Source of the DNA: Ruminococcus flavefaciens AE3010
GTDB taxonomy: Bacteria > Bacillota > Clostridia > Oscillospirales > Ruminococcaceae
Direction of reading: 5' to 3'
DNA: 64,000 nt
Assembly (NCBI RefSeq): GCF_000526795.1
Contig: NZ_JAGT01000001.1
Span: forward strand, 3,330,501-3,394,500
Shown here: positions 18,682 to 34,917 of the stretch, piece by piece
How positions within the stretch are numbered: position 1 is the stretch's first letter
Layout: every line of letters begins with the position of its first letter
Translations under genes and position numbers: made by a program
The notes under the pieces: generated by a model
Database searches by the model: none
What the model saw: only the letters and a program-made list of their open reading frames with translations
What the model was told of the DNA's origin: nothing

Positions 18682-20853
18682 ATGCCAAAATTGTTTGCAA
18701 GAGCAGCATCGGCTCTGACAGCGGGACTCTGCCTGCTGGGAGCAGTGAACCTGCCGTCGGTCATTTCCGCATCAACGGTATATGCTGCTGATTTTCAGGA
18801 AAAAGGAAATGTAGACGGTTACTATTACGAGGTATGGCAGCAGAATTGCGTCGGAGAGATCAATTACGAAAATACCGAGAACAACGGCTTTTCCGCCAGC
18901 TGGAAAAATATTGAGAACACCTTAGCTATGAAGGGTGAGTCCTTTGAAAGAAATAAGACATTTGCGTCACAGCTTAAAGAGTACAATGTGACATATGATG
19001 CGGATATCGACTATATGGGTCAGAACAATTTCTGCAGTGTTTACGGCTGGATGGAAAAACCTGACTTCATGGCGGAGTTTTATATAGTAGACAGCTGGGG
19101 AAGCTGGCGCCCTCAGGGGAACGGATATGATGGTAAGGATTACGGCTCATTTGAATCAAACGGCGTTACGTATGACATTTACAGGAGCATCATATCTCAG
19201 ATGAGCTGTTTTGGTGACGGCACCCCGATCAGGTATATTTATTACAGTGTTGCAAGAGATAATCAAGCCGAAAAGATTGACGGCACCTGCAATATCAAAA
19301 ATACTGTCAATGTTGCCGATCATTTTAAGGCATGATCAGAGGCAGGTCTTGAGCTGGGATATCTGTATGATATCGTATTCAGCGCCGAAAGCTACAGAAG
19401 CAGCGGAAGTGTTGATCTGAAATCCCTTGACATCACCAAGGAGATCACAGAACAGACCAATTACGGTCCGAAATTCGCAAATGAAAAGCATGATCCCCTT
19501 GAACCTGACGAAGAGGGAAGAACGGTATTTATAGACTTTGAAACTGATAACGAAAAGGTCGGGGCAGCAGATGAAAAATGTCAGGCTTCCTACAGTACCG
19601 ACCACTCCTTCTGCGGTGAGCGCTCAATGCTCATCTCAGCCGAGAATAATGATCAGCGCACATTTGTCTATGAGATAGATCCCTATGACTTCAAGGGCAA
19701 GGACATGCTGGGCGGAGTCAGACTGTACCATGATTCGGACGATGATGTGAAATTTACCTTCAAGATCGTCCGCGCCCCGCAGGACGGCAATGAATATGAG
19801 TATTCAAAGTACAGCAAGACAGTTGCTCCCGACCACTGGGCTTCTATGGAGCTTATACCTTTCCCTGTCAACTTGGACAGATTTACAAGATATTATGTTG
19901 AAATATCGGCGCTTGAGCCTGTGGACTTCTACGTTGACGATCTGTACATCTATGATAAAGGGGAGTACAATGATTTCCTCAACTCGGAAAACGCGATCAT
20001 ACGCGGTGATATAAACCGTGATAAGGTCGCAGACATGTTTGACGTGATAGCTCTGAGGAGAGAGCTCATTGATGCGGGAGACTTCTCCATCGACGCTGTC
20101 CACGACATCAACGGCGACTGCAAGCTGGATATAAGCGATCTGGTGCTTCTCAGCCGTTTTGTCCTCGGTCAGGCTGATGCTATCCCCGAGCCCGAGCTCA
20201 GGACGGAATTCTATATGGGAGATTTCCATAAGGAAGAAAATGATCAGTACTATACCATAACCGCTTCCGGAGAAAACGCCGATACTATAAAGACAGCGCT
20301 CCGTGAAAACGGTACATTTATGGCAGAATGGAACAATGTCGACCTTTATGAGGCATTAATTTCACAGGGACTTGATGACTATGACCAGCTGAGCGTCAAG
20401 TATTCGGGCGAGGCAGTAATTGATCCCAAGTCGATAATATATAAATCCAGCCATCTTACTGTCAGCATAATGGCAGAGTTCAGAAAAGACGGCAGACCTG
20501 TCAATGTGTTCTTTACAGACGGTGCAGATGATAATGAAAGGCTCAGGTGGCTGGCAAACTCCGATGATATGGAGTGCGTGACTATCGGCGGCAAAGAGTA
20601 TTACGTCGATAAGGCAAATATGGACAGCGAGCTGTTTGATCCTGTTTACTGGCTGTATCCCAAGGAAAACAGCATTGTATGCGACGGCGCATGCAGCTTT
20701 GAAGGGGAAGTGTACTTCGCAGAGATACTGAAATATTATGGCCTGGAAGATTACAAGCCAAGCGAGATCAGATGTAAATTCAGTGCAGAGCAGGTATGGG
20801 GACATGTTGATCTCAAGGAATTATCATTCCTCGACAAGGGCAAAACCGAATAA
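18682..20853 (+). pseudogene. GH11 xylanase - CBM - dockerin gene interrupted by one in-frame TGA
   Basis: A single frame of 723 codons contains one stop, TGA at 19333-19335 (codon 218). The paralogue at 14727-16952 has the conserved Trp of HFDAW at this point, so TGG became TGA. Parts: signal peptide (1-36), GH11 (37-255) with nucleophile in MAEFYIVDSWGSW and, after the stop, the acid/base Glu in FSAESYRSSG. A CBM22-like beta domain (about 273-426) follows, then a dockerin (about 436-500: GDINRDKVADMFD, DINGDCKLDISD). The C-terminal domain (about 506-723) resembles a diverged GH11. Without readthrough the product stops before the acid/base Glu and lacks the dockerin. A sequencing error is possible. 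Confidence 0.85.
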
Positions 20854-31077: not shown

Positions 31078-31881
31078 TTATGAACCTGTGCCGCTGTAAT
31101 TCTTTGCACCGTGCATCCATATCCTGTAGCTGAGCCAGAAGAATGCGATGCCGATAACAGGTGAGAGCCATGACAGTATGGGTACCTTGTCGGGACGCAG
31201 TATCACAAGACTGGGGTAGTATGCGATAAATGCGATAGGCATGAGGAATGTGAAGATGAATCTGAATACGGGACTGAATATGGTGATAGGATATTTTGCG
31301 TAATCCTTGAAGCGGAACGCAAGGTCGAGAACATAGAATGAGTTCTGTATCCAGAAGCAGGTAGCTGCAGCAGCGTTTTGCAGGGCTATCATTATAAGTG
31401 AAGCCGTTATAAGGAACACTATGGTTTTCAACAGCATGAGCGGTGTGAAGCCCAGACCTATCTTTACCCATGAATAGATAAGCATCACCAGACCGAATGC
31501 CAGCTGTCCCAGACCCTTTATGTCGAATACCTCCGACTGATAATAGAAGAAAGTATTGATTGGGCGGAAGCAGTATTTTATGAAATCGCCTGTGTAAACG
31601 TTCTGTCGGAGGCTCCAGTTGTTGTCGAAGAAGCACTGTACGGGAGTAAGGGATATCAGCGAGAAGCCGTAAAGGAACAGCATCTCGTAGTAGCCCCAGC
31701 CGTTAATTGACGGGAAATTCCTGAACAGTATCCAGAAGCTGATAAAGCCTGCGATATTGGTGCATATCATTCCGATAGTGGAGATGATGAAGTCTGCGCG
31801 GTAGCTCATTTTGCTTTTCAGGTCCTGAGCAAGTATCTTGCAGTATATCTTGGCGTAGAAGCCTAAACCTTTTCTTTTCAT
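31078..31881 (-). CDS. ABC-2 family transporter permease (second subunit)
   Basis: The 267-residue membrane protein has six hydrophobic segments and the features of the ABC-2 permeases of the DUF990 group: YRADFIISTIGMICTNIAGF, the NVYTGDFIKYCFRPIN segment and a conserved end KPxxxLSWLSP-like stretch (LSWLSPVIGIAFFW). With the permease and ATPase genes upstream it forms an exporter; cyanobacterial relatives export viologens. The substrate here is unknown. GGAGG precedes the start at 31881, 6 bp after the upstream gene. Confidence 0.85.
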   Translation of the reverse strand: MKRKGLGFYAKIYCKILAQDLKSKMSYRADFIISTIGMICTNIAGFISFWILFRNFPSINGWGYYEMLFLYGFSLISLTPVQCFFDNNWSLRQNVYTGDFIKYCFRPINTFFYYQSEVFDIKGLGQLAFGLVMLIYSWVKIGLGFTPLMLLKTIVFLITASLIMIALQNAAAATCFWIQNSFYVLDLAFRFKDYAKYPITIFSPVFRFIFTFLMPIAFIAYYPSLVILRPDKVPILSWLSPVIGIAFFWLSYRIWMHGAKNYSGTGS

Positions 31882-31887
31882 ATGTCA

Positions 31888-32691
31888 TCAGCCTCCGTTC
31901 ACAGTTATCTGCCGCAGGGACGTTTTCCAGAACACCTTGCTGATGGTCATCATTACTATGCACCATATGAGCTGAGTTCCGAGAGCTTTGATAACAGTCT
32001 CGGCATCGGGAGAACCGTTCAGCAGAAGTGACAGCGGTGCGTTGTATATTGACTGGAAGGGCAGGTAGCTCACCACAGTTCTGAGGGTATCGGGGAAGAA
32101 TGCAATAGGAATTGTCGCACCCGAAAGCAGGAGTACTACCACCTGCTTCATGATGTTTATGCCCCATATCGACTCGGTGTAGAGACATATAGTACCCACG
32201 ATGAAGTCTATGCTGTAGTTGATGGATACCGCCATAACTACGGAAATAACGAAGTACAGCAGATTTATGCCCATTGGTATGGCTCCGTGAGTAACGACAG
32301 CCACGGCTATGAATGTGGGCAGGAACGTCAGGAAGAACTGTGTGACGAATGAGCCCGAGTACGACCAGAACAGGTACTTTCGGTACTCCATTGGCTTCAG
32401 CAGGTCAAGGACTATCTTGCCTGACTGGATATTTCGTCCTATCTCCCAGACGGTATACATCTCCATAAAATTGAACAGTGCAGTTGCCAGTACAAGGTAT
32501 ATGAGGGTGTCAGTAAAGGTCATGCCGTTTACCACGTCTGTTCCTGCGGAAGCGTATATGGCTTTCCAGAGAAAGTACACCACTATGAGGTAAAGCATAT
32601 TGCCGATGACCATTACCACGAATGACAGTCGGAACTGCAATGCCTCAATAATTCCTGCACGAGTGAGAGTGAGATATTTTTTCAGCTTCAT
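31888..32691 (-). CDS. ABC-2 family transporter permease (first subunit)
   Basis: The 267-residue membrane protein is of the same kind and length as the next gene product, with six hydrophobic segments; IVLDLLKPMEYRKYLFWSY corresponds to the cytoplasmic segment in its partner. The two probably form a heterodimer. Its ATG overlaps the stop of the ATPase gene (ATGA), with GAGGAGGG upstream. It is part of the operon controlled by the leader element at 33721-33936. Confidence 0.85.
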   Translation of the reverse strand: MKLKKYLTLTRAGIIEALQFRLSFVVMVIGNMLYLIVVYFLWKAIYASAGTDVVNGMTFTDTLIYLVLATALFNFMEMYTVWEIGRNIQSGKIVLDLLKPMEYRKYLFWSYSGSFVTQFFLTFLPTFIAVAVVTHGAIPMGINLLYFVISVVMAVSINYSIDFIVGTICLYTESIWGINIMKQVVVLLLSGATIPIAFFPDTLRTVVSYLPFQSIYNAPLSLLLNGSPDAETVIKALGTQLIWCIVMMTISKVFWKTSLRQITVNGG

Positions 32692-33689
32692 TGCACACCC
32701 TCCTCGTATATCTTCTTGATGACCTCCTCGGTGGATATTTCTTCAAGCTGCATATCCTTTATGTTATAGGAGTGCTGGAGCTTGCCGAGAACGTCCATGA
32801 TCTTGGCTTTTTCCTCGTCAACGAGAACTGATATCCACTCATCGTCGGCTGATACGGAAAACTCAGGCAGCTCCTTTTGCACCAGCTTTGCCTGCTCTTT
32901 CAGGTCACCGTCCATACGCAGCTTCAATGTGCGGTATGAGCCGAAAAAGCCCTTGAGGTGCTCGATATCGTTGTCGTAGAGCATCTTGCCCTTGTCGATA
33001 ATGACTATCCTCTTGCAGAGCGCGTCAACGTCGCCCATATCGTGAGTGGTCAGGATAACAGTTGTGTTCCTCTCCTTGTTGAGAGCGTGGATAAGAGTAC
33101 GAATCCTTGATTTCATGGCAACATCAAGACCGATAGTAGGCTCGTCAAGGAAGACTATCTTAGGGTCGTGGAGAAATGCTGCGAGGATATCGCTGAGAGT
33201 ACGCTGTCCCAGAGACATCTGACGGACAGGCTTGTGGAGCAGGGGCTCGATGTCCACCAGTGAGCGGTAAAGCTTTATTATGCTCTCGTACTTCTCGTCG
33301 GGTATCTGGTAGATATCTTTAAGTATCTTGAAGGACTCCACAAGGGGCAGAGCCCACCACAGCTGTGAGCGCTGACCGAATACTACGCCTATTTCCTGAG
33401 CGTTTTTGGTTCGGTTTTTATAGGGGACATTGCCGCCTACAAGTATCTCTCCCGATGTGGGTTCCAGAACGCCTGTCATCATTTTGATAGTAGTGGATTT
33501 TCCGGCGCCGTTAGGACCGAGATATCCCACGATCTCGCCCTGCTGAATGTTCATTGATATATTGTCAACAGCGCGTACAGTCTTGTAGTCCCGCGAAAAC
33601 AGATCTTTCAGACTGCCCTTGAGTCCCTCTCGCCGATTGAGCACTTTGAACTCCTTGCTGACATTTTTGATCTCGATAATAGCTGACAT
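32688..33689 (-). CDS. ABC transporter ATPase
   Basis: The 333-residue protein has one ABC domain (about 1-245): GPNGAGKSTTIKMM, LGQRTLSDILAAFL in place of the usual LSGGQ, IVFLDEPTIGLD and TTHDMGD. The altered signature is typical of this exporter group (MSLGQR). The last 90 residues form a DUF4162-like tail. GGGAGGT precedes the start. It is the first structural gene after a leader peptide and an attenuator, so expression is likely induced by an inhibitor. Confidence 0.92.
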   Translation of the reverse strand: MSAIIEIKNVSKEFKVLNRREGLKGSLKDLFSRDYKTVRAVDNISMNIQQGEIVGYLGPNGAGKSTTIKMMTGVLEPTSGEILVGGNVPYKNRTKNAQEIGVVFGQRSQLWWALPLVESFKILKDIYQIPDEKYESIIKLYRSLVDIEPLLHKPVRQMSLGQRTLSDILAAFLHDPKIVFLDEPTIGLDVAMKSRIRTLIHALNKERNTTVILTTHDMGDVDALCKRIVIIDKGKMLYDNDIEHLKGFFGSYRTLKLRMDGDLKEQAKLVQKELPEFSVSADDEWISVLVDEEKAKIMDVLGKLQHSYNIKDMQLEEISTEEVIKKIYEEGVQ

Positions 33690-33720
33690 ATTTACCTCCC
33701 TTTTCTTTTTGCCTGCAATA

Positions 33721-33751
33721 AAAAAAGCACTCCTACCGAATGCAGGAGTGC
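33721..33751 (-). terminator. Attenuator before the ABC exporter operon
   Basis: An 8-bp stem (GCACTCCT / AGGAGTGC) ends in six T, 37 bp after the leader-peptide stop and about 30 bp before the ATPase gene. Placed inside the leader, it should stop most transcripts unless it is prevented from forming. Confidence 0.85.
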
Positions 33752-33787
33752 AGAACGTACACCGTTATATAATGCTGAAAAAAGCTC

Positions 33788-33874
33788 TTATACGGCTATG
33801 CAGGCAAACTCCTTGCTATGTGATATTTTGTTGTAATATGATCTGTGATAAGGTCGTGTATAAGTTGTTCTCAT
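33788..33874 (-). CDS. Leader peptide (28 residues) before the ABC exporter operon
   Basis: ATG 33874 follows AAGGAAGGTGAACTTC, a strong ribosome site, and the frame runs 28 codons to TAA. The peptide is rich in Tyr, Arg and His (MRTTYTRPYHRSYY) and ends KEFACIAV. The leader peptide at 34125 has the same ribosome site and ends MEFACTAV. Both precede an intrinsic terminator and an exporter or acetyltransferase gene. I infer ribosome-mediated attenuation: stalling in the peptide would change the RNA fold and allow readthrough. It is unlikely to act as a protein. Confidence 0.75.
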   Translation of the reverse strand: MRTTYTRPYHRSYYNKISHSKEFACIAV

Positions 33875-33907
33875 GAAGTTCACCTTCCTTTCAGTTAATA
33901 TGAAAAC

Positions 33908-33936
33908 ATTATACATTACAATTTTTAATTTGTCAA
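33908..33936 (-). promoter_or_regulatory. Consensus promoter of the exporter leader
   Basis: TTGACA, 17 bp, TATAAT on the minus strand: a perfect sigma-A promoter, 34 bp before the leader-peptide start. Confidence 0.9.
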
Positions 33937-34062
33937 GGGCGTTTTTTTACTTCGGTGATATGCTTCTGATTATACACACATTGTGGAAAAAAATGACGCT
34001 ATTTCAGATAAAATATTATATGAGCAGTCTGATGAGTTTTTACATTTGAATCAAAAAAGTGC

Positions 34063-34091
34063 TTGACAAATGAAAAAAATCAATGTATAAT
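34063..34091 (+). promoter_or_regulatory. Consensus promoter of the acetyltransferase leader
   Basis: TTGACA, 17 bp, TATAAT, 33 bp before the leader-peptide start: the same perfect layout as the divergent promoter at 33908-33936. Confidence 0.9.
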
Positions 34092-34124
34092 AGGCACATA
34101 TTAACCGGAAGGAAGGTGAACTCA

Positions 34125-34199
34125 ATGAAAAAAGCATATTACAGTTCAATGGAAAAAACGAATAAACAAAGCATGGAGTTTGCCTGCACAGCCGTATAA
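34125..34199 (+). CDS. Leader peptide (24 residues) before the GNAT gene
   Basis: ATG 34125 follows GGAAGGAAGGTGAACTCA and the frame runs 24 codons to TAA. The N-terminal part (MKKAYYSSMEKTNKQS) differs from the other leader peptide, but the end MEFACTAV, the stop context GCCGTATAA and the following blocks AGCTTT, AGCATT and TAACGGTG are shared in the same order. An intrinsic terminator and then the GNAT gene follow. See the leader at 33788 for the proposed mechanism. Confidence 0.75.
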   Translation: MKKAYYSSMEKTNKQSMEFACTAV

Positions 34200-34236
34200 A
34201 GCTTTACCGAGCATTTTGAATAACGGTGGATATTAT

Positions 34237-34267
34237 GCGCTCCTGCGTTCTGCGGGAGCGCTTTTTT
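34237..34267 (+). terminator. Attenuator before the GNAT gene
   Basis: GCGCTCCTG pairs with CGGGAGCGC (one wobble) and is followed by six T, between the leader peptide and the acetyltransferase start. Confidence 0.85.
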
Positions 34268-34289
34268 GTTGCAGGCGGAAAGGAAAAAA

Positions 34290-34754
34290 ATGGAAATAAG
34301 TATAATGACAGCTGAACATGAGAAATGGGAAGCTGCGGCGGAGTTTGCGGAAAACTGCTCATGGAGGGCAGGAAAAGAGCTTGCAAGGCTCATGGGCGGT
34401 GACGCCTTTGCGGACCGGGAGCGGGTCTTTGCAGCCTTTGAGGACGGAAGCCCTGTAGGATTCTGCACACTCACCGAAAAGGACCAGCTTTTGCCGAAAT
34501 ATCCGTATACGCCGCTGATAGGATTTGTATTCGTTGACGAAGCTCACCGCGGCAAAAGAATATCGCAGAAGCTGATAGAAGCAGCCCTTGGATATGCCAA
34601 AAGCATCGGATATAACAAGGTATACATCATGAGCGGCGAAAAGGGGCTGTATGAGAAATTCGGCTTTGTCTCCATGGGGGACTATGAGACCATATATGGC
34701 GAGACTGAACAGCTGCTGGTCATATCGTGTGAAAGGAGAGATAACAATGGATAA
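34290..34754 (+). CDS. GNAT family N-acetyltransferase
   Basis: The 154-residue protein has the acetyl-CoA fold: LIGFVFVDEAHRGKRISQKL, where RGKRIS is the pyrophosphate loop, and MSGEKGLYEKFGFV near the end. Its acceptor is unknown; the attenuator upstream suggests that it modifies an antibiotic or protects a target. ATG 34290 follows GGAAAGGA. TGCAGGC directly before the ribosome site can pair with GCCTGCA in the leader-peptide coding end. The 56-codon gene downstream overlaps its last 8 bases. Confidence 0.88.
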   Translation: MEISIMTAEHEKWEAAAEFAENCSWRAGKELARLMGGDAFADRERVFAAFEDGSPVGFCTLTEKDQLLPKYPYTPLIGFVFVDEAHRGKRISQKLIEAALGYAKSIGYNKVYIMSGEKGLYEKFGFVSMGDYETIYGETEQLLVISCERRDNNG

Positions 34755-34917
34755 ATTCGTGCCATACGACAAAATGAGCAAAAAGGAACAGAAGAAGATA
34801 AACGGCGAAAAGCGCCGTGACTGGAACGGCATAGACCCTGTCACAAAGGTGGTTCCCGAAAGCAAAAAGGTGTACAAGCGCAAGCCCAAGCATCAGAAAG
34901 ATGACTGGGATGAATGA
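34747..34917 (+). CDS. Small highly charged protein (56 residues)
   Basis: ATG 34747 lies inside the end of the GNAT gene with AAGGAGAG at the right distance. The product (MDKFVPYDKMSKKEQKKING to KHQKDDWDE) is about a third Lys and Arg with acidic ends, has no membrane segment or cysteine, and may be disordered or bind nucleic acid. I do not recognise it. Overlap with the GNAT gene implies coupled translation under the same attenuator. A strong terminator follows within 5 bp. Confidence 0.65.
   Translation: MDKFVPYDKMSKKEQKKINGEKRRDWNGIDPVTKVVPESKKVYKRKPKHQKDDWDE

Follow-up and report, generated by a model that had tools for sequence, protein, structure and literature searches.

Two divergent RNA elements at positions 33708-34289 of a 64,000-nucleotide stretch of a Ruminococcus flavefaciens-like genome (G000), hereafter the window, are probably four-segment transcription attenuators that are controlled by the ribosome and respond to its stalling early in a short leader open reading frame (ORF). 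The elements are flanked by an ABC-2 exporter operon on the minus strand and a GNAT-family acetyltransferase gene on the plus strand, and we confirmed that both are real and are members of one switch family. A first-pass annotation of the window had described their promoters, ribosome site, leader ORFs, stop context, ordered sequence blocks, and terminator-like hairpins, all of which are present; its proposal of ribosome-dependent attenuation is supported by a complete predicted 1-2-3-4 set of mutually exclusive helices. It had overlooked that the leader ribosome site is complementary to the end of the leader, that the TGCAGGC shortly 3′ of the U-tract is the complement of GCCTGCA, and that the family mostly controls rtcB, the gene of an RNA ligase.

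In the mechanism we propose, region 1 would pair with region 2 when the leader is fully translated or untranslated (or a ribosome would cover region 2), region 3 would pair with region 4, and transcription would stop. A ribosome stopped at the start codon or within the next few codons would cover region 1, leaving region 2 free to pair with region 3; the terminator would be delayed and the downstream gene transcribed. After passage of the RNA polymerase, a fifth segment behind the U-tract would pair with the end of region 2 to form a helix, P1, that competes with 1:2 and would keep the leader ribosome site open in the read-through mRNA.

Four predicted competing segments in the leader RNA

Each element opens with a TTGACA-17-TATAAT promoter that matches the consensus at 12/12 positions with a 17-nt spacer (34063..34091 on the plus strand and 33908..33936 on the minus strand). 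A 2-kb stretch here has 7 promoter-like sites, compared with a shuffle mean of 3.7, and the only perfect ones are these two. The ribosome site GGAAGGTGAAC is common to both elements and is followed by leader ORFs encoding MKKAYYSSMEKTNKQSMEFACTAV (34125..34199, plus) and MRTTYTRPYHRSYYNKISHSKEFACIAV (33788..33874, minus), each closed by a stop codon; the stop context GCCGTATAA and the ordered blocks AGCTTT, AGCATT, and TAACGGTG are likewise present in both. Region 1, which comprises the leader ribosome site and start codon, is GGTGAACTCAATG in the plus element (34115..34127) and GGTGAACTTCATG in the minus element (33872..33884). Region 2 lies near the end of the leader ORF (CATGGAGTTTGCC, 34172..34184, plus; CAAGGAGTTTGCC, 33803..33815, minus), and a part of it that we call S1 (GCATGGAG, 34171-34178, plus; GCAAGGAG, 33809-33816, minus) can pair with region 3 in place of region 1. 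Region 3 is the 5′ arm of the putative terminator (34237..34247, plus, in which CTCCTGC at 34240-34246 is the partner of S1; 33742..33751, minus, with CTCCTGC at 33742-33748), and region 4 comprises its 3′ arm and U-tract (34251..34267 with the U-tract at 34262-34267, plus; 33720..33736 with the U-tract at 33720-33726, minus). The terminator-like hairpins span 34237-34261 on the plus strand and 33751-33727 on the minus strand. In the plus element a further hairpin, P2 (GCCGT / ACGGT, 34191..34227), spans the leader stop codon.

The pairing of regions 1 and 2 changes in concert across the family. Region 1 (GGUGAAC..AUG) is complementary to the block CAUGGAGUUUGCC at 12/13 positions in each window element and at 13/13 in leader L049, G-U pairs included. 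Among 58 unique pairs, five of which came from reading RtcB upstream regions missed by our first covariance model (R1, described below), the mean complementarity of a region 1 to its own region 2 was 25.59, compared with 23.33 for swapped and 13.03 for shuffled partners, and 0/10,000 permutations reached as high a value. Both sides had changed together in three R1-missed leaders (L256, L257, L259), and in the leader of an hflX gene (L207) a compensating change sets GGCGGACA against UGUCCGC. These pairing tests were run without two near-duplicates of L100 (L101, L103) and without three elements with damaged or undetected terminators (L053, L064, L115).

Region 2 can alternatively pair with the terminator 5′ arm (GCA-U-GGAG : CUCC-UGC), an arrangement that would serve as the antiterminator. 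S1 formed on average 6.2 bp with region 3, compared with 3.56 bp for its own shuffles (n = 68), and compensating changes were seen as GAGG/CTTC in L069 and L104, GAAG/CTTC in L085, and GAAA/TTTC in L200. When 69 unique leaders were folded up to the terminator loop, at which point arm 4 has not yet been made, 1:2 of 4 bp or more formed in 63; masking region 1 gave 2:3 in 61/69, and adding arm 4 gave 3:4 in 69/69. The folding thus predicts a switch between a mutually exclusive anti-antiterminator, antiterminator, and terminator. A local hairpin between S1 and S2, the GCCTGCA segment at the end of region 2 (GCA-GG/CC-UGC), was considered and dropped, as it fits GCCTGCA-type leaders only.

Ribosome position, leader peptide, and helix P1

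We moved a model ribosome with a footprint of 15 nt on either side of the first base of the P-site codon along the leader ORF in the same 69 leaders. The antiterminator 2:3 formed in 62, 54, and 39 of the 69 with the ribosome at codons 1, 3, and 5, respectively, and in 6/69 at codon 7; the counts were 4 at codons 9 and 11, 7 at codon 13, 10 at codon 15, and 1 at codon 17. No leader formed it at codons 19, 21, and 23 (0/69), while 2/68 did at codon 25 and 5/68 at codon 27. The elements therefore appear to sense stalling at early codons in this model, and the best fit is a general block, either at the start codon or early in elongation, because the effective stalls lie mainly at codons 1-5, where the leaders have no codons in common. 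Tetracycline and retapamulin stall ribosomes at the start codon of the Escherichia coli toiL upstream ORF (uORF), and the footprint of those held by tetracycline has its edge at +16 to +18 (PMC12121999).

The leader peptide is not conserved; the constraint is on the RNA. The first-pass annotation had taken the shared peptide ending EFACxAV as the likely stall or sensing motif, and had named conservation elsewhere as one of the points on which its proposal would stand or fall. Across relatives the RNA is conserved and the peptide motif is not: in 71 unique leaders the CAUGGAGUUUGCC block is read in frame 0 (..HGVC..) in 59, in frame 2 (..MEFAC..) in 9, and in frame 1 (..WSLP.. and similar) in 3, and leaders using the third frame occur in another genus as well (L201-L204). 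The start codon lies 41-60 nt from S1, and the leader ORF has 23-31 codons (L100 excluded). One may postulate that EFACxAV is nevertheless a nascent-peptide arrest motif that causes a drug-dependent stall at the end of the leader, and indeed the last seven residues agree between the window leaders and the ABC and kinase leaders of three relatives (G009, G014, G020). However, the nucleotides that encode it are used in all three frames, with the HGVC frame in 59/71 leaders, and a ribosome over codons 19-23 yields the antiterminator in 0/69. In the window EFAC occupies codons 18-21 of the plus leader and 22-25 of the minus leader, and neither leader forms 2:3 with the ribosome at the scanned codons of this motif. 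We therefore rejected EFACxAV as the sensor and regard an arrest at this motif as highly improbable.

We also consider unlikely an amino-acid- or tRNA-specific attenuation, in which the variable leader part would respond to a shortage of one charged tRNA (Tyr, Asn, Thr) or to tRNA cut by an anticodon nuclease. Cut tRNA would suit an RNA ligase target, and Salmonella rtcB answers broken tRNAs through RtcR (PMC7790460). Several residues are enriched in the variable part relative to the expectation from base composition (Met 3.58x, Phe 1.71x, Thr 1.47x, Tyr 1.43x), yet His (0.41x) and Leu (0.5x) are depleted, no shared codon run was seen across the 71 leaders, and the modelled 2:3 pairing arises mainly from stalls in codons 1-5. 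In addition, no biosynthetic gene was seen as the first gene behind the 76 real matches described below. A related idea, sensing of queuosine-modified tRNA at NAY codons, had been suggested by the Tyr, Asn, and His codons of the first leaders; it was dropped rather than disproved, given the depletion of His and the lack of a shared run.

General stalling by ribosome-targeting drugs, toxins, or damage is the likely signal given the lack of a conserved peptide motif and the set of target genes; ribosome-targeting stress, to which the first-pass annotation had also pointed, is our best guess and is supported by RtcB, exporters, one Lsa-type ABC-F protein, and one hflX as targets. Whether drugs are the natural signal we judge to be evenly balanced. 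Agents that disturb translation induce rtcBA in E. coli, where cells without Rtc survive tetracycline less well (PMC5175333). Listeria hflXr encodes a ribosome-splitting resistance factor under a ribosome-dependent attenuator (PMC6310831).

The helix P1 reaches across the terminator. Its 5′ strand S2 (GCCTGCA at 34182..34188, plus, and 33799..33805, minus) has its partner S2′ (TGCAGGC) at 34270..34276, shortly 3′ of the U-tract, in the plus element and at 33711..33717 in the minus element. Across the family, the GCCNGNN at the region 2 end has its pairing partner in a stretch starting 0-15 nt past the terminator stem, U-tract included, in 65/74 elements; the P1 score is at least 10 in 66/74, among them a doubtful case 32 nt off (L116). 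The two sides covary across species (65 unique pairs, 18.86 compared with 15.52, 0/10,000 permutations), with G-U intermediates in L050, L077, and L091. P1 should not act on termination itself because its second strand is transcribed later than the U-tract. In folded read-through RNA, for which L092, L114, L116, and L126 were also set aside, P1 formed in 47/64 leaders, and in 63/64 with region 1 masked, and the median length of 1:2 was 2.2 bp, compared with 12 before. These models suggest that P1 acts as a clamp that holds the leader ribosome site open, and it could protect the mRNA. A role as operator of a DNA-binding protein is disfavored by the G-U pairs and the variable length.

It is also conceivable, though in our view very unlikely, that autoregulation works through the binding of RtcB or another protein to P1 and its enclosed hairpins, with the ORF secondary. 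P1 has support equal to that of 1:2 and lies partly beyond the terminator, where it would have no direct influence on termination, and both points would suit a protein-binding site. On the other hand, G000 lacks the leader-linked class of RtcB and has kept both elements, and a leader ORF with a ribosome site is present in 75/76 real matches.

Family members, controlled genes, and the window locus

Matches to a DNA pattern for EF-A-C-x-A-V-stop lie at 8 places in 6/125 genomes of the genus, all with promoter, ribosome site, ORF, and terminator; at two of the eight (G064, G074) the leader ORF uses another frame. In a collection of 84,980 species the pattern was found in 33 stretches, of which 6, all from Ruminococcus, have this architecture and 27 do not; named records that carry the pattern are those of R. 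flavefaciens MA2007, YL228, and UBA1190 and of two Ruminococcus metagenome-assembled genomes. R1 is a covariance model built from the 8 pattern sequences. As the window pair is among these, its R1 scores (116.5 and 116.1 bits) are not independent evidence, which comes instead from the relatives. R1 matches, weak ones included, were listed in 85/125 genus genomes at E <= 0.1; 92 of the 122 listed matches were read, the remaining 30 all having E >= 0.0015. The 92 comprise 76 real elements in 67/125 genomes and 16 spurious matches (L094, L112, L118, L120-L125, L127-L133), all below 30 bits except L112 (31.9). A leader ORF with a ribosome site is missing only from the decayed L053, and a terminator-like hairpin could be assigned from sequence in 74/74 rows, doubtfully in L053, L064, and L115.

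Outside the genus, 20 loci within the family were read (L198-L217; L218-L223 and matches that lack a locus were not read by eye), and nine real elements were found in nine genomes of six other genera. A family-level model, R2, listed matches in 93/396 genomes at E <= 0.01, most of which we take to be noise because a spurious match in G000 reaches 37.3 bits. Among 295 genomes at the order level the best match outside G000 scored 38.9 bits, none of the four loci read from 28 was real (L224-L226, L228), and an automatic word search over all 28 found 4 word pairs. Two further weak matches of about 32 bits (L302, L303) in the 16 genomes of the genus of G382 were not read. One exact leader pattern had 0 matches in viral contigs. 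No description of the element was found among the papers listed from the open full-text literature, judged by titles and the openings of abstracts, with subscription literature mostly outside this search. Neither window element has an Rfam match at the gathering score, the matches listed there being far below it; the window's only match at that score is an RT-5 RNA (RF03026, 53980-54084, plus, 97.6 bits).

The first gene behind the 76 real genus matches is rtcB in 65, an ABC ATPase in 4, a P-loop kinase in 2, a GNAT gene in 2, and a MATE gene in 1, with the contig ending in 2. The same kind of rtcB follows seven of the elements outside the genus (L198, L199, L201-L205). Full RtcB matches to PF01139 fall into a canonical class of about 355-368 bits and a second class of about 137-215 bits, and it is this latter class that the leader accompanies: 66/87 second-class matches have an R1 element at most 2.6 kb upstream. 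Upstream regions were read for 16 of the 21 that lack one, and five have a divergent leader (L256, L257, L259, L262, L263), while among the remainder one gene stands behind a MATE gene (L260) and for four no start was found. G000 itself has the canonical class only. The leader-linked RtcB scores 110.3 of 271.8 bits against TIGR03073.

Two elements in other genera precede genes other than rtcB. L200 (minus strand, G382) lies before a gene for an Lsa-family ABC-F ribosomal protection protein, which scores 735.1 as Lsa (cut-off 750) and 491.5 as ribosomal protection-like ABC-F (cut-off 380) and has Lsa(A) as its best solved relative (E 2.9e-126). L207 (minus strand, G359) has a GTG-started leader and a long P1 and lies before hflX at 235-1482 (TIGR03156, 443.2, cut-off 216.75). 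Acetyltransferase and RNA ligase appear to be recurrent partners, as a GNAT gene of the "CSWRAG" kind follows leader and rtcB in 3/15 stretches read (L176, L177, L182; one stretch was only 445 nt) and follows leader and kinase in L189. Several arrangements around rtcB were also noted: in L187 (G004) the leader precedes a MATE-rtcB operon; in L260 (G050) a MATE efflux gene lies directly 5′ of the leader-class rtcB; in L178 (G101), about 1.3 kb in and 3′ of leader and rtcB, a gene by eye resembles a 2′,3′-cyclic phosphodiesterase of LigT/ThpR type; and in L255 (G002) the sequence GCAGGCAGACGGAAAGG 5′ of rtcB resembles what is left of the 3′ part of an element that has lost its leader.

The attenuator interpretation must be weighed against a number of observations that do not sit easily with it. 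Covariation of 2:3 taken alone is weak (46 unique pairs, with 329/10,000 permutations reaching the observed value), at most 2/40 shuffles were as good as the real S1 in only 28/68 elements, and the terminators of L076 and L086 are rearranged and lack CTCC. Once arm 4 is present, no leader (0/69) has 2:3 of 4 bp or more at equilibrium, so that read-through must be kinetic. In six of the 69 leaders (L047, L004, L001, L056, L069, L083), 1:2 is not preferred to 2:3 while arm 4 is still to be made. Three of these are the intact exporter-side leaders, including the window minus element (1:2 0.5 bp, 2:3 9.0 bp). Like the other two, the minus element deviates from the family in preferring 2:3 at that stage; in the ribosome scan it retains 2:3 with the ribosome stalled as far as codon 15, so this switch may leak more or respond over a longer part of the leader. 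The P1 score is below 10, the helix being weak or absent, in 8/74 elements (L064, L092, L109, L110, L113, L114, L115, L126), and the accessibility of the target ribosome site is hardly altered (0.61 compared with 0.63), which leads us to reject control of that site by P1 and makes the role of P1 a guess. On the side of the targets, the ABC-F and hflX genes are one instance each, and 6/16 upstream regions of the second-class RtcB genes without an R1 element have no leader within 290 nt.

At the window locus itself, the plus element precedes the acetyltransferase gene (GNAT, "CSWRAG" family, 34290..34754, plus; PF00583, 54.4 bits, cut-off 20.7). A small basic ORF of 56 residues (34747-34917, plus) lies directly 3′ of it and has no Pfam or NCBIfam match. 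The minus element precedes a DrrA-like ABC ATPase gene (32688..33689, minus; PF00005; TIGR01188, 213.7 bits, below the cut-off of 312.45), followed in the same operon, by position, by two ABC-2 permease genes matching PF06182 (31888..32691, minus, 87.5 bits; 31078..31881, minus, 151.1 bits). A pattern that ties the ribosome site to the leader end matches only the two window elements in G000; a putative third copy at window position 20553 (minus) was rejected as chance, as no ribosome site, hairpin, or U-tract was seen around it. The twin arrangement is kept in G020, which has a 488-codon ORF between the leaders and a kinase-GNAT order on the plus side. G009 has kinase-GNAT with no exporter adjoining. 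Set beside these two relatives, the window has its GNAT gene directly behind the leader, without the kinase. The exporter side is present in G014 and G075.

The exporter leader of G075 (L271) has decayed, with the core partly kept and the ribosome site and leader ORF not found. Loss of the ribosome site would be compatible with a scenario in which the elements are constitutive, duplicated 5′ leaders with a weak terminator and no sensing, and the induction we predict rests on sequence and folding. Four competing segments have nonetheless been maintained by concerted changes across several genera, and we find the constitutive scenario hard to credit.

A broader and more tentative reading, which we hold to be possible rather than probable, is that the Ruminococcaceae possess an RNA-only ribosome-distress regulon combining RNA repair by a distinct RtcB class, drug export, acetylation, ABC-F protection, and HflX splitting. 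All of these would be turned on by a single type of attenuator that builds its anti-antiterminator from the ribosome site of the leader, and P1 would be a commitment clamp through which the leader stays translated and the read-through mRNA protected. If the attenuator interpretation is correct, gut and rumen Firmicutes would run rtcB through a ribosome-stall attenuator, whereas bacterial rtcB control in the papers cited here is by RtcR in Proteobacteria, and the same switch would serve exporters, an acetyltransferase, ABC-F, and HflX. The switch would then name its regulon, and the genes behind it would be candidates for coping with ribosome-targeting drugs or toxins; it could also serve as a reporter of ribosome distress. 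More generally, a leader peptide that looks conserved can mislead where the constraint acts on the RNA.

Comparison with known systems

Amino-acid attenuators of the trp and his type use a 1-2-3-4 logic with a leader peptide, as does the present family. The family differs in its targets, in the position of region 2 inside the ORF upstream of the stop codon, and in lacking a regulatory codon run, none having been found in the 71 leaders. Nascent-peptide arrest leaders of the ErmCL and SecM kind have a conserved stalling peptide motif, and none was found here, where three frames are used over the conserved block.

With respect to the target, the nearest parallels in the portions of the literature used for this comparison are two RtcB systems. 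The RtcR-controlled rtcBA operon of E. coli and Salmonella likewise has an RtcB ligase that is induced by damage to the translation apparatus, but its sensor is a transcription activator (PMC5175333, PMC7790460, PMC12606134), whereas here a perfect sigma-70-type promoter is combined with an RNA attenuator (RtcR and RtcA were not searched for). The RtcB2-PrfH module, as far as described in the part of the report used, similarly ties a second, non-canonical RtcB to ribosome damage (PMC9223846); we rejected this module for the present family, as PrfH exceeded the TIGR03072 cut-off in 0/125 genus genomes.

With respect to the mechanism, the toiL uORF upstream of E. coli topAI resembles the present leaders in being a general sensor of ribosome-targeting drugs, but it acts on translation and Rho-dependent termination, and no intrinsic terminator switch is described in the available part of that paper (PMC12121999). 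The vmlR leader of Bacillus subtilis is closer: it has three competing structures, stalling of a ribosome on the uORF keeps the anti-antiterminator from forming, and pairing beyond the terminator in the read-through RNA has been proposed as well (PMC9226507). Its uORF is a tripeptide inside the anti-antiterminator stem with a single-stranded Shine-Dalgarno (SD) sequence, whereas the uORF here has 23-31 codons and the SD sequence and start codon make up one of the two anti-antiterminator strands; the gene behind the vmlR leader encodes an ABC-F protein, that behind the present leaders mostly an RNA ligase; and the read-through pairing of vmlR frees the SD sequence of the target, which in our model is little affected.

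The hflXr leader (rli80) of Listeria monocytogenes likewise attenuates transcription through an anti-anti-terminator, an anti-terminator, and a terminator; a small ORF covers the region of the first of these, and the target is of the HflX type, which here stands behind L207 (PMC6310831). Its 14-residue peptide carries an RLR stall motif, whereas the present family has no conserved peptide motif and uses the ribosome site itself as one strand of the anti-antiterminator; the two leaders are set apart here by description of the published leader in the part available, not by sequence. We regard the family as a variant of known attenuation logic, and what goes beyond the first-pass annotation is the family itself, its rtcB, ABC-F, and hflX targets, the predicted four-segment switch, and the helix across the terminator.

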